64,000 nt of DNA from positions 1 through 64,000 of the IMG/VR virus record IMGVR_UViG_3300050019_000176; one strand, 5' to 3'. The translations under genes and the position numbers were made by a program. The notes beneath the pieces were generated by a model. It saw only the letters and a list, made by a program, of their open reading frames with translations, had not been told where the DNA came from and made no database searches. This stretch comes from a virus. Shown here in pieces: positions 483 through 64,000 of the stretch (position 1 is the first letter of the stretch; every line of letters starts with the position of its first letter).

Positions 483-500
483 ATGTCTTGGGCAAGACAT
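483..500 (+). repeat. Dispersed palindrome, copy a
   Basis: ATGTCTTGGGCAAGACAT is a perfect 8-2-8 palindrome. It is followed by TGAC rather than a full TGGACA box. The TTG inside it is the only in-frame start near a Shine-Dalgarno-like AAAGG for the gene starting at 488, so this copy overlaps a start codon. Confidence 0.85.
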
Positions 501-820
501 TGACGATAGCTGATAAAGTCCGCGAACTCCTGGCGACCGAACCTACATGGACCCACGCCAAGATTGCCCTGCACTGCGGTTGCTCGGTCGGTTGGGTGAA
601 AACGGTCTCTTCTCGCGCCGGCCACCGTCAACTTTCCCTAGAGCCGCGCATCCAAGCACTCGAACAGACGGTAAAAGACATCCTGGAGCACCTTAACCGC
701 AGCGAAAAACGCACCAAAGTGTCTACAACCTACACACTATCACCACGGCAGAGCCTACGGATTCATGGCAAGACTTCGCTGGATGACTCCGGCGCGCATC
801 CAATTATAGCAAGACCGTGA
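488..820 (+). CDS. Small helix-turn-helix protein
   Basis: A 110-residue protein. Residues 8-45 (KVRELLATEP through VGWVKTVSSR) read as a helix-turn-helix of the homeodomain-like or resolvase-C-terminal type; residues 55-72 look like a short coiled coil. The frame has a TAA just upstream, so the start must be TTG at 488 or 497. AAAGG at 477-481 suits 488, which places the start inside the palindrome. It ends close to the next gene, as first member of a rightward operon. Likely a DNA-binding regulator; the target is not visible. Confidence 0.65.
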   Translation: MGKTLTIADKVRELLATEPTWTHAKIALHCGCSVGWVKTVSSRAGHRQLSLEPRIQALEQTVKDILEHLNRSEKRTKVSTTYTLSPRQSLRIHGKTSLDDSGAHPIIARP

Positions 821-834
821 GAGGTAAACTACCA

Positions 835-3366: not shown

Positions 3367-3547
3367 GGCCGGCCCCCTGGTACTCATTTGCTTTTCTTCT
3401 CCTCGCACACGTATAGCGGTAGATTCGCCCAACCATCAGAACCACAGCGGTTTTCTGTTCTTCGGTGAGTGGGCCGCCTGCGATCTTCTCACAGGCGGCA
3501 ATGTTGGCCTTGCACTTGTCGTGGTACTCGTTGAAGTCATAGGCCAT
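3356..3547 (-). CDS. Hypothetical protein, 63 residues
   Basis: ATG 3547 overlaps the TGA of the leucine-rich-repeat-like gene (TGATG). The product begins MAYDFNEYHDKCKANIAACE and is mostly helical, with two Cys and a basic C-terminus (CARRRKANE). The longer open frame upstream only reads through the repeats in another frame and is not used. No family recognised. Confidence 0.6.
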   Translation of the reverse strand: MAYDFNEYHDKCKANIAACEKIAGGPLTEEQKTAVVLMVGRIYRYTCARRRKANEYQGAGHDA

Positions 3548-4290
3548 CACCGAACCACCTTCGCCTGTAAGTATTTGGGGACCTTGAGCCCGGTGCAGCC
3601 GGAGAGGTCGAGCCACCCGCCGACGGAGAGGTCCTGGGGCAACGCCTTGAGCCCGGTGCAGCCGGAGAGGTTGAGGCTCCCGCGGACGGAGAGGCCCTGG
3701 GGCAACTCCTTGAGCCCGGTGCAGCCGGTGAGGTTGAGCCACCCGCCGACGGAGAGGCCCTGGGGCAACGCCTTGAGCCCGGTGCAGCCGTAGAGGTAGA
3801 GGCTCCCGCGGACGGAGAGGCCCTGGGGCAACTCCTTGAGCCCGGTGCAGCCGGAGAGGTTGAGACTCCCGCCGACGGAGAGGCCCTGGGGCAACGCCTT
3901 GAGCCCGGTGCAGCCGGAGAGGTTGAGACTCCCGCCGACGGAGAGGCCCTGGGGCAACGCCTTGAGCCCGGTGCAGCCGGAGAGGTCGAGGCTCCCGCCG
4001 ACCTTATAGCCGTTCTGAAAGCGGCGTGCGGCAGCAGCGCGGGTGCGCGTTTCCAGGGTTTTGAGTGTGGCCCACTTGGGCAGCACGTCCTGATCGAGTT
4101 TGAAGGTCCAGGCGGAGAGGTCGCCCCAATCTCCCTCGCGCGGTGGCAGGAGTTCGATACGGGCGATATTTGAGCCGGTGGCGCCATCGGCATGGAGCTT
4201 GTTGGCGCGTATAATTTCCTCATGGGAGTCGGTTGTCTCGGACCAAAACTCCCGGTCGTTTGTGAGCACGAATGATGCAAATTGGCACAT
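3547..4290 (-). CDS. Leucine-rich-repeat-like protein
   Basis: A 247-residue protein. Residues 1-90 form a globular N-terminus (MCQFASFVLTNDREFW..); residues about 95-240 are seven to eight near-identical 21-residue repeats with core GCTGLKALPQGLSVGGSLNL, varying mainly at a few positions (S/Y/W, K-A or K-E). This is the pattern of short leucine-rich or related beta-solenoid repeats, usually used for binding. GGAG lies about 11 bases before ATG 4290. A second copy of the N-terminus occurs at 1-245. The near-identical repeats suggest ongoing expansion or recombination. Target unknown. Confidence 0.8.
   Translation of the reverse strand: MCQFASFVLTNDREFWSETTDSHEEIIRANKLHADGATGSNIARIELLPPREGDWGDLSAWTFKLDQDVLPKWATLKTLETRTRAAAARRFQNGYKVGGSLDLSGCTGLKALPQGLSVGGSLNLSGCTGLKALPQGLSVGGSLNLSGCTGLKELPQGLSVRGSLYLYGCTGLKALPQGLSVGGWLNLTGCTGLKELPQGLSVRGSLNLSGCTGLKALPQDLSVGGWLDLSGCTGLKVPKYLQAKVVR
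3580..4008 (-). repeat. Tandem 63-bp repeats inside the leucine-rich-repeat-like gene
   Basis: About seven units of 63 bp, each encoding 21 residues, run through the 3' two thirds of the gene at 3547-4290. Units are almost identical at DNA level, including third positions, with scattered single-base changes. Confidence 0.85.
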
Positions 4291-5573: not shown

Positions 5574-5906
5574 TCACTGTGTAACCTCCGGTGGCAGATA
5601 GGCAGCATCGATGGCCGCCGCTTCCATGTCTTGTGCAAGACTTCTGGACAATTGGACATTCGCCGCAGGCTCGGTCCAGGTGGCCTCATTCCCGAGTGGA
5701 TGCAAAGACCGGATGCGGCCCGACGCCCCACAGTTGATGCAATACGCTGGCCTGATACCGGCGCTTACTGGAACGATCACGATGGAGCCGCACGCGCGGC
5801 AGGTAGAATGGGCGACCGCCAGAAGCCCGCCATCGATGCCTTGCCGCTCCCGCTCTCCTGCTATCAGGTCCAGGCAGAGTGCGGCGAAACGATCGGCCCG
5901 CGTCAT
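5574..5906 (-). CDS. Zinc-ribbon protein carrying the dispersed palindrome in its 3' end
   Basis: A 110-residue protein with a four-Cys ribbon CRACG and CINCG separated by about 17 residues (middle of the protein). AGGTGG before ATG 5906 favours that start over GTG 5915. The palindrome and its two TGGACA-type boxes (5626-5658) are read in frame near the C-terminus as NVQLSRSLAQDM. Its start overlaps the stop of the 43-residue gene upstream. Role unknown; single zinc ribbons often mediate nucleic-acid or protein contacts. Confidence 0.6.
   Translation of the reverse strand: MTRADRFAALCLDLIAGERERQGIDGGLLAVAHSTCRACGSIVIVPVSAGIRPAYCINCGASGRIRSLHPLGNEATWTEPAANVQLSRSLAQDMEAAAIDAAYLPPEVTQ
5626..5658 (+). 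repeat. Dispersed palindrome with TGGACA boxes, copy b
   Basis: ATGTCTTGTGCAAGACTT (5626-5643) followed by TGGACAATTGGACA (5645-5658). It lies inside the coding region of the leftward gene 5574-5906. Confidence 0.85.
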
Positions 5907-6034
5907 CGTGCCCACCTCGCCATATTGTGAAAGTCAATCTCCACCAGGCGCATACGCGGCGCCGATGTCCAAGTGGACTCCGCCACCTTCGCCCGCCGCA
6001 TCATCGCCAGTACTGCATGGATAACTCGCCTCAC
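5903..6034 (-). CDS. Small basic protein, 43 residues
   Basis: GTG 6034 overlaps the TGA of the upstream gene (TCGTGAGG) and its own TGA overlaps the ATG at 5906. The product, VRRVIHAVLAMMRRAKVAES onward, is basic with one amphipathic helix. The double overlap is the main evidence. No family recognised. Confidence 0.5.
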   Translation of the reverse strand: MRRVIHAVLAMMRRAKVAESTWTSAPRMRLVEIDFHNMARWAR

Positions 6035-6923: not shown

Positions 6924-6955
6924 ACGTCTTGTACAAGACTCTGGACATCTGGACA
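6924..6955 (+). repeat. Dispersed palindrome with TGGACA boxes, copy c
   Basis: ACGTCTTGTACAAGACTC followed by TGGACATCTGGACA. Intergenic, about 95 bp upstream of the leftward promoter at 6802-6830. Confidence 0.85.
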
Positions 6956-7060
6956 CACACCAGCAGGCAGAAACCCCATACCATCGCTGCATCGTTCTTT
7001 CCCCCAATAGCAGTTAAGACCAAAGGGAGAAAGCAGGAGAACCCCACACACACCCACCGG

Positions 7061-7086
7061 CCCCCAACCCCCAACCCCCAACCCCC
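7061..7086 (-). other. G-quadruplex motif
   Basis: The minus strand carries four runs of five G separated by TT (GGGGGTT repeated). This is an ideal short-loop intramolecular G-quadruplex pattern. It lies in the gene-free C-rich region. Confidence 0.8.
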
Positions 7087-8235
7087 GAACCGCGGCCACC
7101 CCTTACCAACGGCCAGCCCGCCCACACAGCCCCGGGCCAACGGCCAGCCCGCACCTTCGCTGCCTTCAATAGCCACAAACCCACACACCCAGCCGAACCT
7201 AAGCACCACGCCCCAACCGGCCACCCCTTTACCCTAGCCCCATTACCCCTCAACACCCACCCGCAGCCAGCCACCCCCGGCCGCCATAGACCCCACACCG
7301 CAAGCCAGCCGCGCCCCCTATCCTTATCAACACCTTGCACCCACCAACCAGGCGCCCATCACACCAGCCCCGCCCCGGGCCAACCACAACCCCAGCACCA
7401 CCCGCCCCGCCCCGCTATAGCCTAACCCCTTTCATTCCATCGGCGCCACATAGCCCCCAGTCTATACCTTTCCCCCTCTCCCGGCGCGCGTAATGTGTCC
7501 AGAATGGCAGGGGGTCACCTTCCCCGATCTCCTTTTTGTAACCACTGAGGTTGCAGTTAGCATCATAGTCTTGCCACTGCACGCATATACTTTTCTAGAC
7601 TTGTCTCCGAAATCCCCGGCTGGAGACCGGCGAGTCATGGCAAGACTTCGAGCGGCAGAAGACCGGCGAACGCGTTGCAGGGGAGAAATCCTTATCGGAC
7701 TGGTTTGGTCACGTTCAAGGGAAGCCCTGTAGCGCATCGCCACGGGGTGGTTGATGCTGTAGCATCCCCCAGGGAAGCCACGGGAAGCGTTCAAATAAGC
7801 AGAAGACGGTGAACGCCAGTTATCGCGGCTCGGCTCCGTTACCCTGCATCACGCTACATGGGCATCGAACGCATGGACATTATGAACGCATGAAGGCAAG
7901 GCAGAGAGAGAGTGAGCGCGAGTAGGGAGAACTCGCAGGTAGGCAAGGGCAGGGACGCGCAAGCCCATCGCCGCCCACCTACACCTGGGCGCCACGGACA
8001 CCACGCCGACCGGCAGCCAGCCACCGGCCCGGGACCAACCTCCCGGCCACCGGCCCGCCGCCGACCATCCAGCGCACAGGGGACCGGGCAGGTAAGTTGG
8101 CGAAGGGAAAATCCGGAGACAGCTTCAGCGGCCTCTGTTTTTCAGAATCGCAGAATCAATTCCAGGAAATATTTTACAAAAAATCAGTTACCGGATTGTT
8201 GTGACAGTGAGCGAGAACGGAGCGAAAATGACCGC

Positions 8236-8271: not shown

Positions 8272-8853
8272 ATGAACACGGCAATATATGCGCGAGTGAG
8301 CACGGGTGAGCAGGACTGCACGATTCAGTTGGAGGAATTGCGGCGGTACGTTTCGGCGCGTGGGTGGGTGGTAGTTGGGGAGTACGTCGATGATGGGGTG
8401 AGTGGGGTAAAGGCAAGCAGGCCGGCGCTGGACCGGCTGATGGAGGATGTAAGCGCCCGGCGTATCGATGTAGTGGTGGTGTGGAAACTGGACCGGTTCT
8501 CGCGGTCGACGATCCAGTTTCTGCGGCAAGTGGAGGCATTGGATGCGGCTGGGGTGCGGTTCATTGCGACGAGTCAGGGGATCGACACGGATAAGTCAAA
8601 CCCGACGGCTCGATTGTTCATGCAAATCATTGCGGCTGTGGCAGAATTTGACCGGCAGATGATCCTGGAGCGGACGTCGATGGGGCGGGCGAAGGCGGTA
8701 GCGGACGGGGTGGTGATGGGGAGGCCGCGGCTAGTGATTGACCGGCTGGTGGTGAAGGAGATGCGGGAGGCGGGAAAAAGTGTGCGGGAGATTGCGGCGA
8801 AGGTAGGGGCGAGTGTAGGGAAGGTGCACGGGATGCTGAAGGAGGGGTTATGA
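8272..8853 (+). CDS. Serine recombinase of the resolvase/invertase family
   Basis: A 193-residue protein of typical resolvase size. The catalytic domain has YARVSTGEQ with nucleophile S10 and R8, then the VWKLDRFSRS motif near residue 70 and a long dimer helix. Residues about 150-190 (DRLVVKEMREAGKSVREIAA onward) form a C-terminal helix-turn-helix. It makes double-strand cuts at paired sites and religates them: resolution, inversion or short-range integration. Transcribed from a leaderless-type promoter. Its stop overlaps the start of the HNH/recombinase-domain protein (TTATGA), so the two are probably made together. Confidence 0.9.
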   Translation: MNTAIYARVSTGEQDCTIQLEELRRYVSARGWVVVGEYVDDGVSGVKASRPALDRLMEDVSARRIDVVVVWKLDRFSRSTIQFLRQVEALDAAGVRFIATSQGIDTDKSNPTARLFMQIIAAVAEFDRQMILERTSMGRAKAVADGVVMGRPRLVIDRLVVKEMREAGKSVREIAAKVGASVGKVHGMLKEGL

Positions 8854-9464
8854 GTGGGCGGCGGGACGCATACGCGGCAGAGTTCCACGCCATCCGCACG
8901 TCGATCATTGAGCGTGACGTATCATGCGTTAAGTGCGGATACAATAAACACTTGGAGGTACATCACGTCAAGGGGTACCGGATCAACGACCCGGGAGAGA
9001 TGCGGACCCTGTGTTATCTTTGCCACCTGATCGCGCCGCATCATACTGGGTACTGGGAATGGGAATCTAGTGGCATCGACGGATGGAACACTGCGCTGGA
9101 CCACTTATGCGCAGAAGTTCCAGTTGACCGTGAGTACATGCGGCGATGCCTAACGGTATGGCTGGATTTTCGGAGGTCGAGTCCGGACTTTCTGCTTGGT
9201 GCGAGGCAGCGGATGAAGGCGCGTGGGGAGCGGTGTGAGGGACGAAAGCCGTACGGGCACTATGACGGCGAGGCGCCAGTGCTTGCGGAAATCCGGAGTG
9301 CGGCGGTTGGTGGGGAGAGTGCGGCGGCGATAGCGAGGGAGTTAAATGACAGGGGGGTGCGTACTCGATCGGGTGGGGAGTGGTTTCCATACACGGTTGG
9401 GAGGATTTTGGGGCGGGTAGGGAGCGGCGTCCAGGAGACGGAGATAAACCTGGAAAGGAGATAG
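8850..9464 (+). CDS. HNH nuclease fused to a recombinase-type DNA-binding domain
   Basis: A 204-residue protein in two parts. Residues 20-65 are an HNH nuclease with a zinc knuckle: CVKCG, LEVHHVKGY, CYLCH. Residues about 128-195 (GRKPYGHYDGEAPVLAEIRS, then IARELNDRGVRTRSGGEW and a VGRILG end) match the 'Recombinase' domain that large serine integrases use to bind DNA. No catalytic serine domain is present here; that function lies in the overlapping upstream gene. The pair together looks like a split large serine recombinase with an added nuclease. Confidence 0.75.
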   Translation: MSGRRDAYAAEFHAIRTSIIERDVSCVKCGYNKHLEVHHVKGYRINDPGEMRTLCYLCHLIAPHHTGYWEWESSGIDGWNTALDHLCAEVPVDREYMRRCLTVWLDFRRSSPDFLLGARQRMKARGERCEGRKPYGHYDGEAPVLAEIRSAAVGGESAAAIARELNDRGVRTRSGGEWFPYTVGRILGRVGSGVQETEINLERR

Positions 9465-10022: not shown

Positions 10023-10099
10023 TGGAGGGGAGCGCCGGGCTCGAACCGGCATAGTCCAATTACGTTATCTCGTTTAGAAGACGAGAACGATAGCTCCCC
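10023..10099 (-). tRNA. tRNA-Arg(TCT), unusual: no D-arm in the normal place
   Basis: Acceptor GGGGAGC/GCTCCCC, T-arm GCCGG-TTCGAGC-CCGGC, encoded CCA. Stem CTCGT-loop CTTCTAA-ACGAG is a perfect anticodon arm but starts only a few bases after the acceptor. A D-arm-like GTAATTGGACTAT follows it instead. Total length is normal. Confidence 0.65.
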
Positions 10100-10100
10100 G

Positions 10101-10177
10101 TGGTGGCCCTCCCCGGACTCCAACCGGGCGCCTCTCCGTTAGGACCGGAGCGCTCTATGCGGATGAGCTAGAGGGCC
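10101..10177 (-). tRNA. tRNA-Arg(CCT)
   Basis: Acceptor GGCCCTC/GAGGGCC, D-stem GCTC/GAGC, anticodon stem CTCCG/CGGAG with loop GTCCTAA, T-stem CCCGG/CCGGG, encoded CCA. Reads AGG. Confidence 0.9.
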
Positions 10178-10178
10178 A

Positions 10179-10685
10179 TTACGCGAATAAGTATTTGTCC
10201 CAAAGTTTGGAGTCACCAGCCAGCAACCTGTGTTTCGCGTGAATGCTGATCTGCCGTGGTTGCTTCAATAGCGTCATTCCGGCCTCCGCCGGCGTCCTGT
10301 CCTGCTTCCGGTTATTGCACGGGAAGCAGGACGCCACTAAATTCTCCCATGTCGAGAGCCCGCGCCGCGACCGTGGAACCACATGGTCAAGCGTCAGACT
10401 TCCCGAGGGTAGGCGGGCGCCGCAGTACTGACAGGAACTGCCATCCCGCAGCAGGATTCCCTTGCGGGAGACCGCCCGGTTCTGCCGCGGGAATTTCCGG
10501 TACCTGATGAGCCGGATCACGCTGGGGATTGGGATGTCGATCTTCGCTGTGTGGACCGTGTAGGCAGACACCTCCTCTACGAGCGCCGCCCCCTTGAAGA
10601 TCAGGGTCATCGCTCGGCGGGCTGGTACGATATTGATGGATTCGTAGCTGGCATTGAGAACCAACACGAGACGGTTCAGTGACAT
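10179..10685 (-). CDS. HNH endonuclease
   Basis: A 168-residue HNH protein of a family common in phage tRNA regions. The N-terminal part (LVLNASYESINIVPARRA) precedes the nuclease: VSRKGILLRDGSSCQYCG, LTLDHVVPRSRRG, NLVASCFPCNNRK, with H in DHVVP, N in WENL and two zinc CxxC pairs. It likely cuts DNA near its own gene to spread by repair. ATG 10685 lies just downstream of tRNA-Lys(TTT) and its stop is two bases before tRNA-Arg(CCT). Confidence 0.9.
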   Translation of the reverse strand: MSLNRLVLVLNASYESINIVPARRAMTLIFKGAALVEEVSAYTVHTAKIDIPIPSVIRLIRYRKFPRQNRAVSRKGILLRDGSSCQYCGARLPSGSLTLDHVVPRSRRGLSTWENLVASCFPCNNRKQDRTPAEAGMTLLKQPRQISIHAKHRLLAGDSKLWDKYLFA

Positions 10686-10690
10686 AACGT

Positions 10691-10766
10691 TGGTGAGGGG
10701 CACGGGCCACGATCCCGCATCTCCCGACTTAAAGGGACGGCGCTCTGCCTATTGAGCTAACCCCTC
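10691..10766 (-). tRNA. tRNA-Lys(TTT)
   Basis: Acceptor GAGGGGT/GCCCCTC, D-stem GCTC/GAGC, loop CCTTTAA with C at position 33, stem CCGTC/GTCGG with one mismatch, T-stem GCGGG/CCCGT, encoded CCA. Confidence 0.8.
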
Positions 10767-11464
10767 AAAAGACCTCTACAGTATTCGGATTCTCCCCCGG
10801 CTGCGACTCGTTTTACGTTGGCGGTTTTCTTGGCCTCTTGCAGTTTTCTCCATTCCCGGCCGCTCCCTTTATTCCTTCCCTTGTAAGTGGGGAGCTGCAT
10901 ATCGCAGTTCCCGCAAACCAAGCGAAGGTTGGCTACGCTCCAGTTTGTAGAGTTACCGTCTATATGATCCAAGATCAACGGCACCCTCTCGCCCATCCAA
11001 GTGTCCGTTCCACACCGGGAACATTTGTTACCAGCGGTGTCCTTTAGATAACGTTTGGCCCACCCTCCCCTAGCGCTCTCGGAGCCGCCCAACACCTCGC
11101 CAGTATTGCGGATGTGATTCAGCTGTAGTATCCATCTACTGCCGTAAAAGCAGGCTGTCGAGCAGAACGGTCCTGGCCTAAACGTGTCACCACCGCAGTT
11201 CTTGCATGGGTGGCGCTTTTCTTCTAGAGACTGCCCATGCCTACGGACTCCAATATTGCGCACCGCAGCAGCGCAACTGTGATTGCAGAACGTACTCTTG
11301 CCTCTTTTCTCGTATGGAATCACTTGATCACATTTTATGCACCGTTCTGGATTGAGAGCGTACGCCACTCGTTTTTGCTGTGCAACTTCTTTGGTTTTCT
11401 GGATGCCTGCCGCCAGCCATTTGCTGATAGTGTCGGCCCTGGCCTTCGTCATTCTTCGCGGCAT
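10757..11464 (-). CDS. HNH endonuclease with N-terminal zinc fingers
   Basis: A 235-residue protein. After MPRRMTKARADTISKWLAAG come Cys pairs CIKCDQVIPYEKRGKSTFCN, CKNCGG and FCSTACF, then the HNH core CSRCGTDTW, PLILDHIDGN, LRLVCGNCD. Zinc-finger plus HNH is the architecture of mobile phage endonucleases. ATG 11464 (or 11452) follows tRNA-Val directly. The last codons run ten bases into tRNA-Lys(TTT), using its TAG as stop. Confidence 0.85.
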   Translation of the reverse strand: MPRRMTKARADTISKWLAAGIQKTKEVAQQKRVAYALNPERCIKCDQVIPYEKRGKSTFCNHSCAAAVRNIGVRRHGQSLEEKRHPCKNCGGDTFRPGPFCSTACFYGSRWILQLNHIRNTGEVLGGSESARGGWAKRYLKDTAGNKCSRCGTDTWMGERVPLILDHIDGNSTNWSVANLRLVCGNCDMQLPTYKGRNKGSGREWRKLQEAKKTANVKRVAAGGESEYCRGLLRG

Positions 11465-11483
11465 TCTACTATCCAGTGTAACA

Positions 11484-11559
11484 TGGTACGGGGCAGAAGG
11501 ATCGAACTTCTCTGTACCTGTTCGTAGGAGCAGCACCGTCACCAGACGATAAACCCGGC
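11484..11559 (-). tRNA. tRNA-Val(TAC), degenerate anticodon stem
   Basis: Acceptor GCCGGGT/GCCCCGT with one mismatch, D-stem ATCG/CGGT with GG in the loop, loop CCTACGA (C33), T-stem AGAAG/CTTCT, encoded CCA. The anticodon stem CTGCT/ACAGG pairs poorly, so it may be inactive. It is the only valine candidate. Confidence 0.55.
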
Positions 11560-11560
11560 A

Positions 11561-11650
11561 TGGTCCCCGGCCCAGGTGCCGACCCTGGATCTAGCTCCGA
11601 TCTGGAGAAACGGTTATAGGCCGTCTTGCGGCGCCGGCCGCCCACCGGGG
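11561..11650 (-). tRNA. tRNA-Ile(TAT) with long variable arm
   Basis: Acceptor CCCCGGT/GCCGGGG, D-stem GCGG/CCGC, anticodon stem GACGG/CCGTT with loop CCTATAA (C33), variable hairpin CTCC-agatc-GGAG, T-stem CCAGG/CCTGG, encoded CCA. Its 5' part overlaps the end of the HNH gene at 11614. Confidence 0.65.
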
Positions 11651-12186: not shown

Positions 12187-12209
12187 CAATAATATATTAA
12201 CACGAAAAC

Positions 12210-12298
12210 TGGCTGGCGGAAGAGGATTCGAACCTCCATGCGGGATCACTCCACGGCAGATTAACAGTCTGCTGCCTTACCAGTTAGGCGATCCGCCA
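12210..12298 (-). tRNA. tRNA-Asn(GTT) with long variable arm
   Basis: Acceptor TGGCGGA/TCCGCCA, D-stem GCCT/AGGC, anticodon stem GCAGA/TCTGC with loop CTGTTAA, an 18-nt variable region holding GGA-gtga-TCC, T-stem GGAGG/CCTCT, encoded CCA. Confidence 0.85.
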
Positions 12299-12302
12299 AT
12301 CT

Positions 12303-12378
12303 TGGTGGGTCCAGCGGGGCTCGAACCCGCACATCCCTGAGTAAGAATCAGGTACGCTGCCACTCGCGTCCTGGACCC
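12303..12378 (-). tRNA. tRNA-Lys(CTT)
   Basis: Acceptor GGGTCCA/TGGACCC, D-stem ACGC/GCGT, stem CCTGA/TCAGG with loop TTCTTAC, T-stem GCGGG/CCCGC, encoded CCA. Confidence 0.92.
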
Positions 12379-12384
12379 GAAACT

Positions 12385-12459: not shown

Positions 12460-12460
12460 A

Positions 12461-12536: not shown

Positions 12537-12541
12537 AAACT

Positions 12542-16183: not shown

Positions 16184-16197
16184 TGGACATTTGGACA
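16184..16197 (+). repeat. Isolated TGGACATTTGGACA double box
   Basis: Same double box as follows the dispersed palindromes at 43521 and elsewhere, but here no palindrome precedes it. 34 bp upstream of the TTG start at 16231. Confidence 0.75.
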
Positions 16198-17582: not shown

Positions 17583-17596
17583 TGGACATTTGGACA
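17583..17596 (+). repeat. Isolated TGGACATTTGGACA double box
   Basis: Preceded by GTGCAAAGGTTC, which looks like a decayed right half of the palindrome. Between divergent genes starting at 17551 and 17642. Confidence 0.7.
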
Positions 17597-17641: not shown

Positions 17642-17851
17642 ATGGCAAAGAAGCGTGTGAAGGACCCATGCTCCTACTGCCACCGAGCGGCGACGGTGCG
17701 GTGTGATGTGGAGGGGTTGACCATCGGTTCGCTGGAATGCGGTCGCGCCTGCTGCCCACGGCACTCGACGAAGTTGCCGAACGGGCAGGTACGATGCTTG
17801 GGGCATGAGGGCGTTGGGGAGCAGGTGTCCAATGTCTTGCCCAAGACATGA
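17642..17851 (+). CDS. Small Cys/His-rich protein ending in the palindrome
   Basis: A 69-residue protein, MAKKRVKDPCSYCHRAATVR onward, with CSYCHR, CGRACCPRH and CLGH: a cross-brace-like zinc-binding pattern. Its last codons (SNVLPKT, stop) are the palindrome at 17832-17849. A seven-codon frame (ATG 17619, stop overlapping this ATG) precedes it. First of four overlapping rightward mini-genes. Confidence 0.65.
   Translation: MAKKRVKDPCSYCHRAATVRCDVEGLTIGSLECGRACCPRHSTKLPNGQVRCLGHEGVGEQVSNVLPKT
17826..17849 (-). repeat. Dispersed palindrome with TGGACA box, copy d
   Basis: ATGTCTTGCCCAAGACAT (17832-17849), box on the left as TGTCCA, so the element points leftward. It holds the end of one gene and the ATG of the next (ACATGA). 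Confidence 0.85.
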
Positions 17852-20024: not shown

Positions 20025-20828
20025 ATGAAGGCATTCGAGAAACTGATCGAGAAGGCGATGGCGAGGACGCAGGGGATGCCACCGCGTGAGCAGTGGGCAT
20101 CTATCCAGCAGCAGGTGGAGGTGTTCTTCGACATATTTGAGGATGGCGGCGCGATCGGGTATGCGGGGACGGCTGCGGAAAAATCGGCTGCGGACAAGTT
20201 CCGCACGGTGTTGGCATCGGACCTTCAGCAAGTCATCCAGAAGGCCAATCCCAATGGGCTGATCCTACTGCCAGGGAGGAAAGAAGACATTGATTCGGCT
20301 GTCCCCGTGGGACCTCCGGTCCGTATCGTCTACGCCGGCGGACCGTCGGCCGGCGACGAAGCGGCGCTTCCGGTGGAACACTGGCTAACCCTCGACGCCT
20401 TGGTGGAGGAGGTCCGTCGTGTGATGCCGACGGTGATTGAACTCGACCTACCGGGCTTCGCACAACCGCTCAAACTCAACCGGAAGATCACCCCCGGTCC
20501 GCCAGTCACCGAAGGCGTGAAGTTCTTACGTTTGCAGTACTTGGCGGAAGGCGCACCGGACGGCCCCGGTGTCTTGTGCAAGACATCGGACAGTTCGGTA
20601 GACGTCCAATCCATTCTCAGCGAGATCCAGGCCGGTGCGGTCGCCCAGTTCAGCGCCACGCAGCGCAAAGTCGAACCGCGGACGCCTTACGTGCGGCCAC
20701 CTTCCCTCGATGAGCTTCGTCGGATGATGCCTTCGTCTGATCCCGGTCCAGGGAAAGACGAGGAACGTGCTCCTCATGACGAAGACATCGTCACCGATCG
20801 CAACCGATGGGACCGCTATGCCAAATAG
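20025..20828 (+). CDS. Hypothetical protein with the palindrome inside its coding region
   Basis: A 267-residue soluble protein, MKAFEKLIEKAMARTQGMPP onward, with a mixed alpha/beta middle and a charged, disordered C-terminus (SSDPGPGKDEERAPHDEDIV). The palindrome at 20569-20586 is read in frame near residue 182 as GVLCKTSD. The gene follows the membrane protein by four bases. No family recognised. Confidence 0.65.
   Translation: MKAFEKLIEKAMARTQGMPPREQWASIQQQVEVFFDIFEDGGAIGYAGTAAEKSAADKFRTVLASDLQQVIQKANPNGLILLPGRKEDIDSAVPVGPPVRIVYAGGPSAGDEAALPVEHWLTLDALVEEVRRVMPTVIELDLPGFAQPLKLNRKITPGPPVTEGVKFLRLQYLAEGAPDGPGVLCKTSDSSVDVQSILSEIQAGAVAQFSATQRKVEPRTPYVRPPSLDELRRMMPSSDPGPGKDEERAPHDEDIVTDRNRWDRYAK
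20569..20586 (+). repeat. Dispersed palindrome, copy e
   Basis: GTGTCTTGTGCAAGACAT inside gene 20025-20828; followed by degenerate boxes CGGACAGTTCGG. Confidence 0.8.
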
Positions 20829-31471: not shown

Positions 31472-31855
31472 ATGACTTTTACCCGCGTTAAAATCTTGGC
31501 ATTGTCCGGATCTCTGATCTGGATGGGACTGGCGTTTTCCCAGTCAACGAGAAACTCCCTAAGTACTCAGGATCGTATTCAGGATCTCAACGATAAACTC
31601 CAGGATCATCTAGTGACTGCCGAAGGCAAGATCGCCGAAGTGTCCGACCTGCAACGTAGGGTGAACATCATAGAGGCTGGAGCCAGGGCAGACCGGCTGG
31701 ATGCCCGCGTGGCGCGCATAGAATCCAACGTAGAAAGCCTTCACTCGATGTTCTGGGGAATCCTGATTCCTGTTATGCTGATGGGGGCTGAGGCGATCAT
31801 GCGGTTGATCGTAGCGGCACAGTCGGCCACAAAAAAACGGCTCGGCTCGGGGTGA
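31472..31855 (+). CDS. Membrane protein with coiled coil, 127 residues
   Basis: Begins MTFTRVKILALSGSLIWMGL with AFSQ after, a signal-peptide-like start; a coiled coil at residues 32-90; then a hydrophobic C-terminal helix MFWGILIPVMLMGAEAIM. Its stop overlaps the dispersed palindrome at 31855. Immediately precedes the terminase genes. No family recognised. Confidence 0.6.
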   Translation: MTFTRVKILALSGSLIWMGLAFSQSTRNSLSTQDRIQDLNDKLQDHLVTAEGKIAEVSDLQRRVNIIEAGARADRLDARVARIESNVESLHSMFWGILIPVMLMGAEAIMRLIVAAQSATKKRLGSG

Positions 31856-31878
31856 TGTCTTGGACAAGACATTGGACA
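31855..31878 (+). repeat. Dispersed palindrome with TGGACA box, copy f
   Basis: ATGTCTTGGACAAGACAT (31855-31872) and TGGACA. It covers the end of the upstream gene and contains the TTG start of the next. Confidence 0.85.
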
Positions 31879-34500: not shown

Positions 34501-34785
34501 GGTGTCCAAATGTCCAATGTCTTGTGTAAGACATTGGCGCTTCTTCATGATCCGGAGCACCAGATCTTGTGGAGAAACTTCAAACGCTCCAGATGCCACA
34601 GCCTTGGTGCGCTTAGAAAGGCAGATATCGAAGTGCTCCCATGGGGTTCCGGCCTTCTGTATCCACTTCCTCTGGACGCCGATTCGGTCCACCATAGATA
34701 ATAATTCATCTCTGGTGTCGGCGATCATGTGGCACATCACCATCCGGCCAAAGGAAGCACCGTAATTATCCACGTATACGGACAA
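34492..34785 (-). CDS. DUF4031 protein
   Basis: A 97-residue leftward protein matching DUF4031: YVDNYGASFGRMVMCHMIAD, TRDELLSMVDRIGV, WEHFDICLSKRTKAV. TTG 34785 is the start, with GGAG seven bases upstream and one base after the previous stop. The C-terminal residues (KKRQCLTQDIGHLDTSE) are encoded by the palindrome and its boxes, suggesting the element sits at the gene's end. Family function is unknown. Confidence 0.8.
   Translation of the reverse strand: MSVYVDNYGASFGRMVMCHMIADTRDELLSMVDRIGVQRKWIQKAGTPWEHFDICLSKRTKAVASGAFEVSPQDLVLRIMKKRQCLTQDIGHLDTSE
34503..34534 (-). repeat. Dispersed palindrome with TGGACA boxes, copy g
   Basis: ATGTCTTGTGTAAGACAT (34517-34534, one mismatch) with the boxes on its left as TGTCCAAATGTCCA. 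Points leftward, matching the orientation of gene 34492-34785, whose end it encodes; convergent with terL. Confidence 0.85.
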
Positions 34786-36595: not shown

Positions 36596-38458
36596 ATGTA
36601 TGCGCTGCCCCGTGGTTCCATTTACCGCGAAGATGGAGAGACCCAGTTTGACACAGGGTCTGGGTCATCTGGCTACATTCGGGCACTGGGAACGTGGCAG
36701 CAGGGTGCGGCTGAGGAAGCTACCCGCACCGCCCGACTGAACGTCGAACTCGATCACATCGCCCGCTACATCAGTTTCATTCAGGGGAACCATTGGGATC
36801 CGCGCCGACCGCGGTACAAGTCCAGATTCGTGGACAATCGCGTGGGGAAGACCCGCTTCGATGTGCTGTCTCTGCTGACCAACCCCCGCCCCGTATTCGA
36901 TGTTGGCACGAAGGTGGCAGAGTATCAGGACACCGCCGATGCCATCGAAGGGGTCATCCGCCACGAATGGCTCCACAACGATATGGACCTGAGCCTTGTG
37001 ACGGCCACCGACATCTGCATGGCCTACGGAACGTCGTTCTGGAAGCAAGGTGCTTGCAAGCCCGGGATGATGAGGGTTTCGCCGTGTGGGCCGGATCAGG
37101 TTATGCCGATCCAACCGGGAATGCACATCCAGGAATCCTCGGCTGTCTTGTACAAGACATACAAGCCGGTCCACTGGGCGCGGTCGCGGTTCCCCTTCCG
37201 GGCGGAGGACATTGAGCGAGAGGCGGCAGCGATCGACATCCGAACGGCCGCCGGCACGTCGACGTATGCGCGTCCAGGCCATATCGAGGAGTACGTCTGG
37301 CAGGGATTATCTCCGCAAATGCGGAGAATCGTCGGTGTGCGGCAGGAACCAACCGCCGCCGGCCAGGACTTCTTCAAGTCCTTGGAGATCAGGGAGTTCT
37401 ACGTCGATGACCCAGAAGTGAATGAGTCGAAGGAAACGGTGATCATGCGTGACCCGTACCTTTCGCTCGATGCCCACAACTGGTGGTACAGGGTCCGTCC
37501 CGGAGAGCGACTGTACCCACGGAAGCGGTTGCTGATCTTCGCTGGGCGCCGCGTCCTGTACGATGGCCCATCGCCGTTCATCCACGGGCTCTACCCCTTC
37601 TCGATGCTTCGGCTGAACCCGGTGTTCTATTCGTTCTGGGGTCTGTCGAAGTACCGTGATCTGATCCCATTGAACATGGCGATCAACGAGATCGTGGCCG
37701 GCGGACTGGACATGATCAAGCGGACACTGAATCCGCAGGCCATTACCAAGGAGAACGCCGTCAGCCAATCTGCGTGGCGCGAGTTCTTCAGCGATATGCC
37801 GGGTGCCAAGTTGCGCCTGCAGAACAACGCCAACCCCGCGACGGACTTCAAGTACCTGGATTCGCCGAAGATCTCGGCGGATGTCTTCACGATGTTGCAG
37901 GGTTGGTTGGATCCGGAGTACCAGAAGATGTCCGGCATGTTCGATGTGACCGGCCTGATGGGAAAGAACCAAGTCCCCGGCGGCGACACGGTCGAGCAGA
38001 TGCGCGATTCGCAGCAGACCGGTACCCAACTGGAGGGCCGCTACCTGGAAGCGTTCATCCGCGATGCCGGTGTCCAGGCCGTTCCGAACGTGGTCCAGTT
38101 CTACACCGCCAGCCGGACGATGCAGATCCTCGGTGCCGCTGGGCTGGTACTGGCGCACGCCGATTGCAAGCCGGGAGAATTCACGCCGGCGGGTGTCGAC
38201 CAAAGCCTATTCGCGAAGACGTTCGAGATGTCCATCGAACCGGGATCGCTGAGAAGTGGACACCATGATCGCGACAAACAGGTAGCAATTCAACTTGTAG
38301 CGATGGGCCTGATACCGATCAAAAAATTCTACCGGATCATGGAGTTCACGGACGCCGACCAAATGCTGGAAGAACTCAAAGAGCAATCGTCGGCCGGAAT
38401 TTCTCCCGGTGCTGGTCCCAGGATGACGCGGGGCCAGAAAAACGGCCAAGCGGCCTGA
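36596..38458 (+). CDS. Portal protein
   Basis: A 620-residue protein with portal features: long helical and mixed core, RYISFIQGNHWDPRRPRYKS and VGKTRFDVLSLLTNPRPVFD near the N-terminus, a central wing (FFKSLEIREFYVDDPEVNES) and the helical LNMAINEIVAGGLDMIKRTL segment, followed by the GDTVEQMRDSQQTGTQLEGR clip-like stretch. It follows terL and precedes scaffold and capsid genes, as portals do. Forms the dodecameric DNA gate at one vertex. The palindrome at 37143-37160 is read in frame near residue 183 as AVLYKTYK. Confidence 0.85.
   Translation: MYALPRGSIYREDGETQFDTGSGSSGYIRALGTWQQGAAEEATRTARLNVELDHIARYISFIQGNHWDPRRPRYKSRFVDNRVGKTRFDVLSLLTNPRPVFDVGTKVAEYQDTADAIEGVIRHEWLHNDMDLSLVTATDICMAYGTSFWKQGACKPGMMRVSPCGPDQVMPIQPGMHIQESSAVLYKTYKPVHWARSRFPFRAEDIEREAAAIDIRTAAGTSTYARPGHIEEYVWQGLSPQMRRIVGVRQEPTAAGQDFFKSLEIREFYVDDPEVNESKETVIMRDPYLSLDAHNWWYRVRPGERLYPRKRLLIFAGRRVLYDGPSPFIHGLYPFSMLRLNPVFYSFWGLSKYRDLIPLNMAINEIVAGGLDMIKRTLNPQAITKENAVSQSAWREFFSDMPGAKLRLQNNANPATDFKYLDSPKISADVFTMLQGWLDPEYQKMSGMFDVTGLMGKNQVPGGDTVEQMRDSQQTGTQLEGRYLEAFIRDAGVQAVPNVVQFYTASRTMQILGAAGLVLAHADCKPGEFTPAGVDQSLFAKTFEMSIEPGSLRSGHHDRDKQVAIQLVAMGLIPIKKFYRIMEFTDADQMLEELKEQSSAGISPGAGPRMTRGQKNGQAA
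37143..37160 (+). repeat. Dispersed palindrome, copy h
   Basis: CTGTCTTGTACAAGACAT, with the 16-bp core TGTCTTGTACAAGACA perfect. Inside the portal gene; no TGGACA box follows. Confidence 0.8.
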
Positions 38459-38858: not shown

Positions 38859-38883
38859 ATGTCTTGGGCAAGACATCTGGACA
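38859..38883 (+). repeat. Dispersed palindrome with TGGACA box, copy i
   Basis: ATGTCTTGGGCAAGACAT (38859-38876) then cTGGACA. Intergenic, 26 bp before the ATG at 38909. Confidence 0.85.
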
Positions 38884-43520: not shown

Positions 43521-43552
43521 ATGTCTTGCACAAGACATTGGACATTTGGACA
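43521..43552 (+). repeat. Dispersed palindrome with two TGGACA boxes, copy j (best match)
   Basis: ATGTCTTGCACAAGACAT followed directly by TGGACATTTGGACA. Intergenic, 22 bp before the GTG at 43575. Taken as the consensus form. Confidence 0.9.
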
Positions 43553-47028: not shown

Positions 47029-50000
47029 TTCGAAAAATGTCCAATGTCTTGGGCAAGACATTGCCCTTCGCGATCTTCCTGCTGGTGGCCAGTACTCTAC
47101 GTGGCCAAGGTGTCACTAGGTCCACGCCCCTACAGGTTACTAGGATATACAACATCACATCGACCTGGGCCGGAGAGTGCGGTGCGGGAGTGATTGACAA
47201 TCGTTCTCTGGTGGCCGGCCGCACCAACAATTACCACTCTGTCTATGCTACTGGCTCCGGTTCCTGGACCGTCGCCATCAACTACTCCGACACATCCTGT
47301 TCCGGTTCTTGGACATCCTTCGGATCGACATCTTCGATCTCTCAAGCTAGCAACCCTCCGATCGCCTACGCCAACGGTAACCACTCGTTCATTCAGATTG
47401 TAGTCACTGGCAACGCCTCGGTGACCTATTCCGCAGCCAAGGACTTCTTCCTGGCCACCTCGGTCGGTTCAGTGTCTTTCCCTGTCACTGTCCCGCAGGG
47501 TGGTACTGGCCTAGCCACGCTTCCATTGCACAGTATTATGCTAGGCAACGGGAACTCGACTCCAAATACAATTACCCCAGGGGATGCGGGAACGGTGTTG
47601 ACTTCCAACGGTCCAGGGGCTGATCCAAGCTACAAAGTATCGTCTCCCGTCTCTACTGATTACGATTACGCGGCGCAGTATCCGGGAACCACTCTGATCG
47701 CCCTGGGATCAAACCAGACGATTACCATGACGCCGTGCCCGAAAGGCATTTACGCAAACGGCATCTGGGCGCCCGTGTATCTGTCTGGTGGTACGGGGAC
47801 CGCCGAGCATCTAGTGCCGATCGGTGGAACCTGCACCTCGGGAGCAACCACTGGGACAATTATCCTCACGCCGACATACGGGCATTCGAACGCCTATACG
47901 GTACAGTCCTACACCGCTGGAATTCAGGAAGCCGTGAACGCGAATCCAGGGAAAACCATTAAGATTCCACCTGGACAGCACTCGGTAGGTAACGTCAGGA
48001 TCACGACCAACAGCACTTACCTGGAAGGTGGCGGAGACCCTGGGGGCGGGGACAACGGCCTTGGCACGGTAATTGTTCCCTTGGTTAGTTCGGGTTGCGT
48101 CTTCGAATGGACGACGGCGGTGAACCACCAGATCATCATCGGCGGCGGGATGTCCAAACTGGGATTCGCCAAACCCGCGTATGCCGCAGGTACAGAGATC
48201 GCCGTCTGCGTGCATGGCGAGGCAGCGAACCAAACCTACGGGATGCGCTTCACTGAACTAACAACGCACTACGTGGGTCGCGCACTCGAAACGATTTACG
48301 ACCAAGGATCCTATTATTCAGATTCCGGCTTCAGCGGCACGACCCCAGGCCAAAATGTCATCGGAATCGGCAGCGGGCTCGCTCGCTATTTTCGAGGGAT
48401 CACAACCTACAACGGATCCGGCCCTCTCGGATCTCCTTCTTCCGTCTCCACGGCATCTTGGGCTACTGGTACGGCAACCTATACGGTCGGGACGCACGCG
48501 ATCCTACTGGGCCAAGTGGTTGGGATTACGGGGATCACCCCATCTGGATATAACGTCGCGTGGGCGACCGTTACCGGGATCACCCCAACCACAATCAGCG
48601 TTTCCATTGTCAGCGACCCGGGTTCTTACTCGACCGGGGGGTCTGTGCAACCAACCGGGCTAGCTGGGACGGTTATCGACATTACCGAGGATGCTGGTGA
48701 TGATTTTGCATCTCTCAACCCGATGGGGGCGGACACCGTAATCAAGCTCCATCCCGCCTCCGGGAAAAGCACAAGTTGGAACGAGTTCACCGCGGTCAAC
48801 GTGGATTCTTCGCTTCACGGCATCGTCATAGCTCCTGAGACTGGTGGAACGGCGAACATCAATTCTTTCAGCAATATGTGGTTCTCGTCGATGCTTGTGG
48901 GTAGTGCTATCTCTCTCGAAGGCACAGGCACAATTGGCGACACCAACTTCACTGGAGGTCGCATCCGAGCGAGCAAAGGTCCCGTCATCAGTATCACGAA
49001 CAGCAGTGTAGTCAACTTCAAGGTTACGGGAGCACAGATTGGCGACGGTCTCGACGATGGCATTCTCATCGCGGCCGGGTCAGGCATTTCTCTAATTGGA
49101 AACTCGATCACGGGCAACGTCAAGAACGGCATCCACATCACTGGTGGCTACAACATCCACATATCCAGTAACACCATCACGGGGAACTCGGTCTCACCGA
49201 GCACCTCCGGTCAGTATGACGGCATCCGAATTACCGGTGGTCCGCAAGGTATCGACATGCCCGGCAACAAACTGTGCACTCTCTATGGCGAAACCCAAGG
49301 GTGGGGCCTTAACTGGGGGGGCACGGGCGATGCTGGCTCATTCACAGGCGGATCGGCTGGACCGGGGTGCGTCAATGGGCCATTTACCTACAGTTCAACA
49401 GGCGGTAATTTCATCTATGGCGGCGTGCAGGGAATTGATAATGGTGTCCAGTCCTGCACAAACGGAGCCAGTGAATGCGTAGTATCAGGATCGACTATCA
49501 CAGTCACCCCGAAGAAAACGATCAATTTGCTGAGTTCTGCCACCGTCCTAAACATCGTTGACCCATCGCATTTCGAAGGCAAAACGATCCACATCGTCGC
49601 CGCCGCAAGCCCACCAGCATCGCCGACGCTTCAAGCCGGAGGCACTCTGGGGTCCGGGTTCGCCGAAAATCTGACTTTAGCGCGGTATCAAATGGCAGAT
49701 TGCACGTACTCCACCATCGACTACTCCTACCACTGCACTGCGAAAAATAGGGAAAACGTTCGTGATTATGGGGCTAAGGGAGACGGGTCCACCGACGACA
49801 CTTCGGCGATCAATTCCGCTTTGGCCCGGTGTCCTAACGCGACGATCTATTTTCCGGACGGGACCTACAAAATCACCGCACCTCTTAGCGCTGTCGGTAA
49901 CGGCTGCAACGTCGTCGGTGCCGGACGCGGAGCCACCGTAGTCAATCAGGCAACGGCAGGACAGGACGCCTTTGACTTCTCAGGGAGCGGATATTTTTCT

Positions 50001-58152: not shown

Positions 58153-58177
58153 ATGTCTTGTGCAAGACTTTTGGACA
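58153..58177 (+). repeat. Dispersed palindrome with TGGACA box, copy l
   Basis: ATGTCTTGTGCAAGACTT followed by tTGGACA. Between the fibre gene and the acetyltransferase-like gene. Confidence 0.85.
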
Positions 58178-61603: not shown

Positions 61604-61606
61604 TCC

Positions 61607-64000
61607 ATGGCCGACGTCGACTACAGCGTACTGGCCCAGCAGGCGAGGGACGCCACCCCGCCGCCGCCGGACTATGCGGCGATGGCCCAACAGGCGAGGG
61701 ACGCCACCCCGCCGCCGCCGGACTATGCGGCGATGGCCCAACAGGCGAGGACGTCTGCGCCAATTGACTACAACGCGCTCGCACAACAGGCCCGTAGCAT
61801 AACAACTACGCCGCGCACCAACCCGGAGGGAATCCTGGAGGGTGTCGGTAAAGATCTCAGCATCGGCTTCCGAACTGGCGTAGCCGACATCGCGCACACC
61901 GCCGCCAATGTCTTGGACAAGACACCGTTCACCGACTTCGCCGACCGCACTCGTGCCTTCGCCGCCGAAGAGGAGCCAAAGCCGGAGGAGACGGTTGACC
62001 GCGGCGGATTCGGTAATGCCCTGGTACAGGGGGTTGGTGGGCTGGTTCCTTCGGCCGTAAAATATGCTCCGGCGATGGTGGCCAAGAAGTGGGCACCACT
62101 CGTGGCCGGTGCTATCGAGGCAGCGGGGAAGGCCGACGAAGGGCTGGTCCCAGCGATCAAGGCTGGAGTGAAGGGTGCTGCCCAGTTCGCTTTGGTTGGC
62201 AAAGCGGCAGACCTACCCACCCGGGCGCAACGCGCGATCGGCATGTCTGCGGCGATGGCCACGCCGGCGCTGATCGAATCAAAGGGGAACACCGCACAGA
62301 CCGCCTCCGCCGCGGTACTCGGCGCAGCGATGGGTGGGTTATCCAAAGCGCCAAAGGGCGAGACATCGCCGGTCATGGATGAAGCCATCTCCGCCGGAAA
62401 GCAGTTGGCGGATAACTTCAAGAGTGTCTTCGACCCACAGTCGCGCGAGTTCAAGGGGAGCACAGCCCCACCGAATGCCGCTGCACAGACAGCGACAGTG
62501 GCCCGCGCTCACCTTGGCGAGATGTGGCAGAAGGGCGTTCAGGTGGAAGATTCGCTAAGGAAGTTGAGTGACTTCTTCGACGAGCAGGCACCAGATCCAA
62601 GATTCCCCGAAGGCCCATCGACGCCGGCCATCGACTTCATGATGGCAATCCGTAAGGGGAATGTTGACCAGTTGCCGGAAATGATGCAGCCGTTCGCCAA
62701 GGTGGTGCGGGACACGTACGACAATCGCGCCGAAGTCATGCAGCAGAAGGGCATCCTGAAAAGCTACGTCGACAACTATTTCGGTCTGTTATGGAAGCGC
62801 GGTGGCGACAATCCGGACTTCCAAGCCATCGCCAAGAAACCCCTGGAGGGGCAGAAGGGATTTGCCAAGCAACACGTTTTCGACGATGTGATGGAAGGAC
62901 TGGAGTACGCGCAACAGAACCCAGACTCCGGGTTGCAATTGGCCTTCAATAACCCGGTCGACTTGGTGATGAGCAAGGTCCGGGAGATGGACAAAGCCAT
63001 CATGGCGCACGATACGCTTTCGGAGATGCGGGACATGGGACTCTCGCAATTCGTGCGGCAGGGTACTCGGGCACCGGATGGTTGGACGCAGATTGATGAC
63101 AAGACGTCGACGGTGATGTTCAAAGACCCCCGGACGGACATGTGGACGCTGGCGGGACACTGGTTCTCACCGGAACCGGCGGCGAAGGTAATCAATAATT
63201 ATCTCTCGCCCGGACTGGGAAAGAACGCTGCTTTCCGCGGATACAAACTGGCCGCCAACACCATGAACCAATTCCAATTGGGATGGTCGGCGTTCCACCT
63301 TGGATTCACCACGTACGATGCCATGCTATCCCAGTTCGCGCTCTCGGCGGAGGAAGCCGCCACCGGCCTTGCACGCAAAGACCCGGCTCTCATGGCGAAG
63401 GCGGCAGGGCATGCACTCACCGCACCATTCGCCGCGTTCGAACCCATCGTGGCCGCTGCAGCGCACCAAATCTCCCCTGAACTTGGGAAGATGTTCCGCT
63501 CGAATCAACTCATGCAGGAATGGCGAAATCCTGGATCGTTCCCCCAACTGGCTCCCATTGTGGAGTATGCCAAGCAGGCCGGCGCCCGCTTCGAATTGGA
63601 CCCATTCTACAAAAACGATCTCTGGCGCAACATGAAGCAGACGTACTACGAAGGCAATGCCCTCGGTGCTGCGCTGAAGTTGCCCACGGCGATAACCGAG
63701 CAGTTGGCGAAGCCCATCATGGAGTACGTGGTACCGCGCCAGAAGGCGGCAGTATTCGCCAAACTGACGGAGTTCGAGGTAGGGAAACTGGGGCCGAACG
63801 CGACACAGATGCAGGTACGCAGTGCGGTACAGTCGGCATGGAATAGCGTCGATAACCGAATGGGGCAACTCGTTTATGACAACCTGTTCTGGAATCGGAC
63901 GGCAAAGGATCTGGCGATGACCAGCATCCGGAGCGTGGGTTGGAACCTGGGAACGTGGCGAGAACTCGGCGGCGGCATGAAGGATTGGGCGAATGCCGTG
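61607..64000 (+). CDS. Large internal or DNA-ejection protein, continues past the window
   Basis: ATG 61607 opens a frame that stays open for 798 codons to the edge. Residues 1-75 are 17-residue repeats (DYAAMAQQARDATPPPP). The palindrome copy m is read near residue 101 as NVLDKTPF. The rest is helical with a hydrophobic segment (LVGKAADLPTRAQRAIGMSA) and a C-terminal part with NQFQLGWSAFHLGFTTYDAM and SVGWNLGTWRELGGG, which recalls the LPD38-type large polyvalent proteins of phage ejection modules. The likeness is by eye only. Confidence 0.6.
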   Translation, partial: MADVDYSVLAQQARDATPPPPDYAAMAQQARDATPPPPDYAAMAQQARTSAPIDYNALAQQARSITTTPRTNPEGILEGVGKDLSIGFRTGVADIAHTAANVLDKTPFTDFADRTRAFAAEEEPKPEETVDRGGFGNALVQGVGGLVPSAVKYAPAMVAKKWAPLVAGAIEAAGKADEGLVPAIKAGVKGAAQFALVGKAADLPTRAQRAIGMSAAMATPALIESKGNTAQTASAAVLGAAMGGLSKAPKGETSPVMDEAISAGKQLADNFKSVFDPQSREFKGSTAPPNAAAQTATVARAHLGEMWQKGVQVEDSLRKLSDFFDEQAPDPRFPEGPSTPAIDFMMAIRKGNVDQLPEMMQPFAKVVRDTYDNRAEVMQQKGILKSYVDNYFGLLWKRGGDNPDFQAIAKKPLEGQKGFAKQHVFDDVMEGLEYAQQNPDSGLQLAFNNPVDLVMSKVREMDKAIMAHDTLSEMRDMGLSQFVRQGTRAPDGWTQIDDKTSTVMFKDPRTDMWTLAGHWFSPEPAAKVINNYLSPGLGKNAAFRGYKLAANTMNQFQLGWSAFHLGFTTYDAMLSQFALSAEEAATGLARKDPALMAKAAGHALTAPFAAFEPIVAAAAHQISPELGKMFRSNQLMQEWRNPGSFPQLAPIVEYAKQAGARFELDPFYKNDLWRNMKQTYYEGNALGAALKLPTAITEQLAKPIMEYVVPRQKAAVFAKLTEFEVGKLGPNATQMQVRSAVQSAWNSVDNRMGQLVYDNLFWNRTAKDLAMTSIRSVGWNLGTWRELGGGMKDWANAV
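61653..61754 (+). repeat. 51-bp tandem repeat in the ejection-protein gene
   Basis: Units encoding DYAAMAQQARDATPPPP; two adjacent units are identical at DNA level apart from their first copy's start (DYSVL) and the shortened third (ARTSAPI) and fourth (ARSITT) units. Confidence 0.8.
61908..61925 (+). repeat. Dispersed palindrome, copy m
   Basis: ATGTCTTGGACAAGACAC inside the ejection-protein gene, without TGGACA box downstream. Confidence 0.8.

Follow-up and report, generated by a model that had tools for sequence, protein, structure and literature searches.

Dispersed 18-bp palindromes with tandem half-sites in an uncultured tailed phage: possible operator or roadblock sites of a phage regulator

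The IMG/VR record IMGVR_UViG_3300050019_000176, which is 75,521 bp in length, derives from an uncultured phage; its bases 1–64000 constitute the window, that is, the whole 64,000-nucleotide stretch analysed here. Genes encoding a terminase-like protein (32275–34500), a P22-like portal (36596–38458) and a major head protein (41268–42149) indicate a tailed phage. Within and between its genes lie dispersed copies of a composite element, consisting of an 18-bp palindrome, ATGTCTTG-NN-CAAGACAT (8-2-8 layout, half-site CAAGACAT), and, at most sites, a one-sided tail of TGGACA boxes.

The palindrome set is real and sharply bounded. At a threshold of three mismatches or fewer, the window contains 13 palindromes, while the shuffled sequences yielded a mean of 0.18 and at most 2; all 13 lie at the coordinates proposed in an earlier sequence-only reading, and the frequency in shuffled DNA, named there as a possible refutation, favours the motif. 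Two further copies beyond the window (67140 and 71613) bring the whole record to 15, compared with a mean of 0.15 and a maximum of 1 in Markov-1 resamples. Eight copies match exactly, six have one mismatch and one has three; no sequence has four mismatches, and the class with five comprises 13 background matches, so that a clear gap separates the sites from the background. The sites span positions 483 to 71613 with gaps of 1.3–11.3 kb, and their spacing is not significantly even (coefficient of variation, P 0.08).

When the copies are aligned with their tails to the right, none of the 15 varies at positions 3–7 (GTCTT) and 11–16 (CAAGAC), i.e. 11 of the 18 positions, and only one departs at position 8. 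Conservation relaxes slightly at the two outermost bases of each side and, on the untailed side, ends at 18 bp; the central two bases vary. Tails of two TGGACA boxes are found at six palindromes and of one box at five, which bears out the earlier impression that most copies carry them; one tail is degenerate (CGGACA, at 20569) and three palindromes (483, 37143 and 61908) have none. Box pairs lacking a palindrome, already noticed at 16184 and 17583, are indeed present there, and a third was found at 70536, beyond the window. The element holds convergent half-sites at a fixed distance, and its first tail box stands 7–8 bp from the palindrome arm. Pairs of TGGACA with a period of exactly 8 bp occur eight times (0.05 expected) and with a period of 7 bp once. 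The box and the arm CAAGACAT both contain GACA, and the tail boxes are extra half-sites related to the arm, repeated at the fixed 7–8 bp period. The whole element therefore reads as a dimer site with tandem half-sites for one putative DNA-binding protein. Because the tails differ in number and spacing while the contact bases are fixed, the conservation pattern appears to reflect protein contacts around free spacers rather than recent copying. The same box also occurs in an inverted sequence, GGACAATATGTTGTCC (L005:12960–12978, record ~72960–72978), just upstream of a minus-strand gene (72759–72941). The elements of the window are listed in Table 1.

Table 1. Copies of the element in the window, with the candidate regulator gene that begins inside the first of them
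Feature	Position	Strand	Context
Palindrome ATGTCTTGGGCAAGACAT, no clear tail	483..500	+	holds likely TTG start (488) of HTH-like ORF 488–820
Candidate regulator, HTH-like ORF, 110 aa	488..820	+	start inside site 483
Palindrome, two TGGACA boxes (right)	5626..5658	+	within minus-strand ORF 5574–5915
Weakest palindrome (3 mismatches), two TGGACA boxes (right)	6924..6955	+	non-coding, divergent genes flank
Tail-only TGGACATTTGGACA	16184..16197	+	first TGGACA is -35 of promoter-like sequence, CACAAT 16207–16212; precedes gene starting near 16231
Tail-only TGGACATTTGGACA	17583..17596	+	first TGGACA is -35 of promoter-like sequence, TACCAT 17607–17612; precedes gene 17642–17851
Palindrome (17832), one box (left)	17826..17849	-	3' end of gene 17642–17851; reaches stop and next start
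Palindrome, degenerate box CGGACA (right)	20569..20592	+	within gene 20025–20828
Palindrome, one box (right)	31855..31878	+	on stop of gene 31472–31855 and TTG (31860) of next gene
Palindrome (34517), two boxes (left)	34503..34534	-	palindrome 17 bp past stop of terminase-like gene 32275–34500
Palindrome, tailless	37143..37160	.	within portal gene 36596–38458; ungapped stretch against Tunturi_1 portal
Palindrome, one box (right)	38859..38883	+	17 bp past a stop; shortly upstream of ATG 38909
Palindrome, two boxes (right)	43521..43552	+	intergenic; GTG at 43575 downstream
Palindrome (47044), one box (left)	47038..47061	-	5' end of gene 47025–51410
Palindrome, one box (right)	58153..58177	+	4 bp past a stop
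Palindrome, tailless	61908..61925	.	within gene 61607–65062
HTH, helix-turn-helix; ORF, open reading frame.

The sites are concentrated at gene junctions, although the genes were called from codon usage and by inspection, and the P values for placement are approximate. Of the 15, seven have a gene end no more than 20 bp away (9 % expected, P 0.00016): two on a stop and the next start (17832 and 31855), one holding a start codon (483), one at a gene start (47044) and three standing 4–17 bp past a stop (34517, 38859 and 58153). In the tightly coded region of 18–75 kb, 4 of 11 sites lie entirely outside coding sequence (4.5 % expected, P 0.001). Eight palindromes are wholly within coding sequence; the seven in plus-strand genes all share one reading phase (V-L-x-K-T), and the minus-strand copy at 5626 is in a different one. 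The shared phase, which puts most G/C at third positions, may reflect coding constraint only.

Box orientation had been thought usually to follow the gene in which the site lies or which it precedes, with 47044 as the exception; this does not hold. Tails point in the direction of the gene at 20569, 31855, 38859, 43521 and 58153 and against it at 5626, 17832, 47044, 67140 and 71613, while the flanking genes are divergent around 6924 and convergent around 34517, which leaves both ambiguous. A scan for sigma-70-like consensus matches yielded 37 promoter-like sequences in the record, none of which is overlapped by any of the 15 palindromes. On the other hand, of the three tail-only sites two supply the -35 hexamer of such a sequence, and a rightward gene follows closely downstream of each. 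Three of the 88 TGGACA boxes in the record serve as a -35, and the probability that two of three tail-only sites would do so by chance is roughly estimated at ~0.003.

The exact motif was found as a dispersed set in none of the collections scanned. IMG/VR yielded only single, chance-level copies, whether searched with the exact palindrome, with a relaxed core or with palindrome and box together, as did phage records searched with the element, and the palindrome plus box was absent from GTDB (84,980 species of bacteria and archaea, each represented by one genome). At eight loci, TGTCTTG-NN-CAAGACA-like copies occur in pairs at a distance of 21 bp; those examined lie beside a tyrosine integrase and small accessory genes, and the loci were rejected as a different thing. 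Searches of IMG/VR with the major capsid protein and the terminase recovered nothing close, and a terminase alignment brought up six remote relatives, one of which (G004), like the phage Tunturi_3, has no dispersed palindrome. Among named phages the nearest are Tunturi_1 and Tunturi_2, whose portal and terminase are ~22–26 % identical to those of the record and which infect Tunturiibacter (soil Acidobacteriota); an Acidobacteriota host is therefore plausible for the phage of the record.

Comparable palindromes are present in these cultured phages. Tunturi_1 contains nine dispersed copies of GAGTCCAA-NN-TTGGACTC at two mismatches or fewer (none in its resamples) and Tunturi_2 contains eight, while the resamples for this palindrome gave 0–1 copies. 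Like the palindrome of the record, they are 18 bp long with an 8-2-8 layout and have GTC..GAC at their ends, and their half-site TTGGAC is identical to the record's tail box. Their sites lie on stop codons (9299 and 53729), on a start (55456) or in genes, and the portal genes of Tunturi_1 and of the record each hold one, at different positions. Within a diverged stretch, the Tunturi_1 site at 47540 and the Tunturi_2 site at 45708 differ by substitutions, the latter being nearer the consensus. Tunturi_4, which is unrelated to the phage of the record and probably temperate, encodes an integrase and two HTH_3 (Cro/CI-type) repressor-like proteins; it holds 13 copies of CTGCACA-N-TGTGCAG at one mismatch or fewer and 19 at two or fewer, 8 of the 13 being non-coding (P 1e-5). 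A search of GTDB genomes with its terminase found no prophage. In all three phages the 8 to 19 copies are spread across both early and late genes, frequently at the end of a gene, but differ from those of the record in sequence and in being tailless, and the Tunturi_4 palindrome is 15 bp long with a 1-bp centre. A search of the text describing the Tunturi phages (PMC11924767) found neither 'palindrom' nor 'repressor'. Absence from relatives that keep the gene order had been proposed as evidence against the motif; the exact spelling is indeed absent from them, while the architecture is present in Tunturi_1 and Tunturi_2.

As a control, 15 unrelated contigs were taken from those holding one chance core copy and are thus not a random sample; 14 of them have at most four dispersed copies of any 6-bp dyad, compared with 14 copies in the record. 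The only one to exceed this, the 61.7-kb virus contig G012, has one dyad dispersed six times, as six exact copies of TTGACGCCGGCGTCAA. The Tunturi_1-type core AGTCCAANNTTGGACT also occurs in intergenic clusters in several AT-rich virus contigs; these AGTCCAA-NN-TTGGACT clusters occupy one region in each contig, some of them just upstream of a sequence resembling a ribosome-binding site, and are a different arrangement. Five dispersed palindromes of the Tunturi_1 type were found in an unrelated 40-kb contig (G031).

ORF 488–820, which starts inside a site, is a candidate autoregulated regulator with weak helix-turn-helix similarity (PHROG repressor, E 0.013; HTH_23, E 0.059), and its predicted structure is too poor to be used (pLDDT 45). 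Two further helix-turn-helix-like ORFs are located at 1754–2014 (by inspection, with weak matches) and 18256–18453 (HTH_17, E 2e-5). No small DNA-binding protein common to the record and Tunturi_1 or Tunturi_3 was detected by phmmer. Replication genes were not recognised in the record, and an Rfam scan identified tRNAs only. The 30 tRNA genes form a dense minus-strand array (10023–15562), in which HNH endonuclease genes separate some of the neighbours. The C-rich, non-coding stretch at 7000–8100, with CCAACCCCC-type repeats, adjoins site 6924 and precedes a DNA invertase/resolvase gene (8272–8853), which overlaps a gene whose start is HNH-like and which also encodes part of a recombinase domain (8272–9464). 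Both record ends (window 1–246 and record 75167–75521) lie within one leucine-rich repeat (LRR) gene built of 63-bp repeats, the left end holding its N-terminus and the right end its C-terminus, and a complete homologue is present at 3547–4290. These ends are most simply read as those of a circular genome that is nearly complete and was broken within the LRR repeats; alternatively, a segment may be missing between LRR genes.

Taken together, the elements are best read as palindromic operator or roadblock sites of a phage regulator, acting in a stoperator-like manner but outside the cluster A family, a reading to which a probability of roughly one half is assigned. The earlier proposal, that one DNA-binding protein has operator-like sites dispersed over the genome, stands as the best reading. 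It draws on the invariant contacts around free spacers, the fixed half-site period, the enrichment at junctions, the two promoter-like sequences on which tail-only sites lie and the comparable site sets in cultured Acidobacteriota phages. One phage-encoded regulator would bind all elements, with a dimer on the 18-bp palindrome and further subunits extending in tandem, in steps of 7–8 bp, onto the direct half-sites TTGGACA. At 16184 and 17583 the half-site array would cover the -35 box, and binding may block initiation. The palindromes at junctions and in genes, which lie off promoter-like sequences, could instead serve as roadblocks or long-range silencers, and might act in either orientation because the core is symmetric. 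Much of the genome would thereby be kept off, as in lysogeny or ordered expression. The omega regulator and MetJ are ribbon-helix-helix proteins, and the half-site step resembles theirs, which is a lead only.

Several observations weigh against this interpretation. No regulator is tied to the sites, the best candidate (488–820) having the weak similarity and poor model mentioned above. Among the proteins scanned, no integrase of ordinary size, ParA/ParB-like protein or CI-like protein was recognised, and lysogeny, which we infer for this phage, is thus unproven. Tunturi_1 and Tunturi_2 have no annotated integrase, so dispersed palindromes need not mean lysogeny. Moreover, tail orientation is random with respect to transcription, unlike that of cluster A stoperators, and the majority of sites lie away from promoters.

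The elements might instead be partition or genome-organising sites, bound by a ParB/KorB-like or omega-type (ribbon-helix-helix) protein that segregates a plasmid-like prophage or organises the genome, with or without silencing. Omega-type regulators bind heptads. Like the element, the targets of KorB and of omega-type proteins comprise symmetric sites in dispersed positions and half-sites in tandem (KorB: PMC11790492); the sites extend along the entire record, and the record may be circular. Nevertheless, this explanation is unlikely: no match to the ParA or ParB/KorB families was found among the proteins scanned against Pfam, with small ORFs scanned in part, the spacing lacks significant evenness, and the overlap of tail-only sites with promoter-like sequences, together with the junction enrichment, favours transcription. 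A similarly small probability is attached to binding by a host regulator, or by a phage activator or late-gene regulator, instead of a global repressor. Such a protein would suit the position of 38859, 43521 and 58153, ~25–60 bp upstream of start codons, and the overlap of tail-only sites with -35 boxes. However, palindromes are found in genes far from starts and none is on a promoter-like sequence, and the palindrome plus box is missing from the 84,980 species' genomes, though the host may be unsampled.

Three other readings were tested and rated low. Insertion of a mobile palindromic element, partly in frame, as for the Rickettsia palindromic element or repetitive extragenic palindromic (REP)-like sequences, could account for the single phase of the seven plus-strand in-gene copies and for the location of several copies at protein termini or in proline-rich linkers. 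It is improbable, since the portal copy aligns without gaps to the Tunturi_1 portal (few copies are testable in this way), the tails vary around fixed contact bases, the diverged Tunturi_1/Tunturi_2 site changed by substitution rather than insertion, and the shared phase is also the one richest in third-position G/C. Slightly less credible still is the idea that these are recombination sites of the serine DNA invertase/resolvase at 8272–8853, with the central dinucleotide as the crossover. Half-sites of resolvase sites begin with TGTC, as do those of the record, and serine-recombinase crossover sites are inverted, ~26–28 bp or longer, with a 2-bp centre. The gene clearly matches a PHROG DNA invertase (2e-48) and the central dinucleotide is variable, but conservation ending at 18 bp on the untailed side falls short of 26 bp, essential genes would be scrambled if 15 sites lying in both orientations recombined, and Tunturi_1 and Tunturi_2 have comparable palindromes without an annotated recombinase. 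A hairpin in the transcript, with a role in RNA processing, termination or the control of translation, as suggested by the palindromes at stops and starts, is very unlikely, given that the stem is broken by mismatching changes in five copies with none compensated, the tails run in both orientations, no T-run follows the palindromes and no Rfam family other than tRNA was matched.

A broader proposal is that Acidobacteriota phages commonly carry an unrecognised, genome-wide set of symmetric 'palindromic stoperators' with lineage-specific spelling, and that the regulators which read them diverge quickly and silence elongation in either direction, the record's version being composite, with tandem half-sites that may allow cooperative spreading. 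This proposal is tentative and we regard it as doubtful. If true, it would be tractable in the laboratory in Tunturi_1 and Tunturi_4 and would supply a signature in the sequence from which the immunity groups of uncultured soil phages could be predicted.

Among known systems, the SPBRE motif is likewise a single repeated motif dispersed over a phage genome, that of Bacillus phage SPbeta, and is read by the master repressor MrpR (PMC10516654). SPBREs are located in promoter regions, whereas the consensus scan placed no palindrome of the record on a sigma-70-like promoter and many of them are in genes; an MrpR-like protein was not recognised. The KorB operators (OB) of plasmid RK2 are dispersed and palindromic and act both near and far from promoters (PMC11790492), and are thus orientation-independent. 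The record resembles them in these respects but differs in sequence, in its additional direct half-site tails and in that no KorB/ParB-like protein was recognised. Cluster A stoperators (L5, Bxb1 and TipsytheTRex) comprise some 20–30 sites scattered over the genome, many of them within short intergenic gaps and a few at promoters, with motifs that vary between related genomes; they are 13 bp long, asymmetric and aligned with transcription, and their reversal abolishes function (PMC9283540, PMC6550527). Near-identical dispersed sites (here 15 over 71 kb) are common to both. As to placement, the record shows junction enrichment and two tail-only sites on promoter-like sequences, but 8 of the 15 palindromes are wholly coding. 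A homologue of the cluster A-type repressor (helix-turn-helix plus stoperator domain) was not recognised among the ORFs, which were scanned in part and among which the only candidate is the weakly helix-turn-helix-like 488–820. The kinship with L5 and Bxb1 stoperators suggested by the sequence-only reading is unsupported: theirs are polar monomer sites, whereas the record has a palindromic core with tandem half-sites and tails without polarity. In the literature compared here, genome-wide repressor sites that stop elongation are only of the asymmetric mycobacteriophage type, and a symmetric, orientation-free version, if confirmed, would extend the roadblock mechanism to phages of another phylum, Acidobacteriota.

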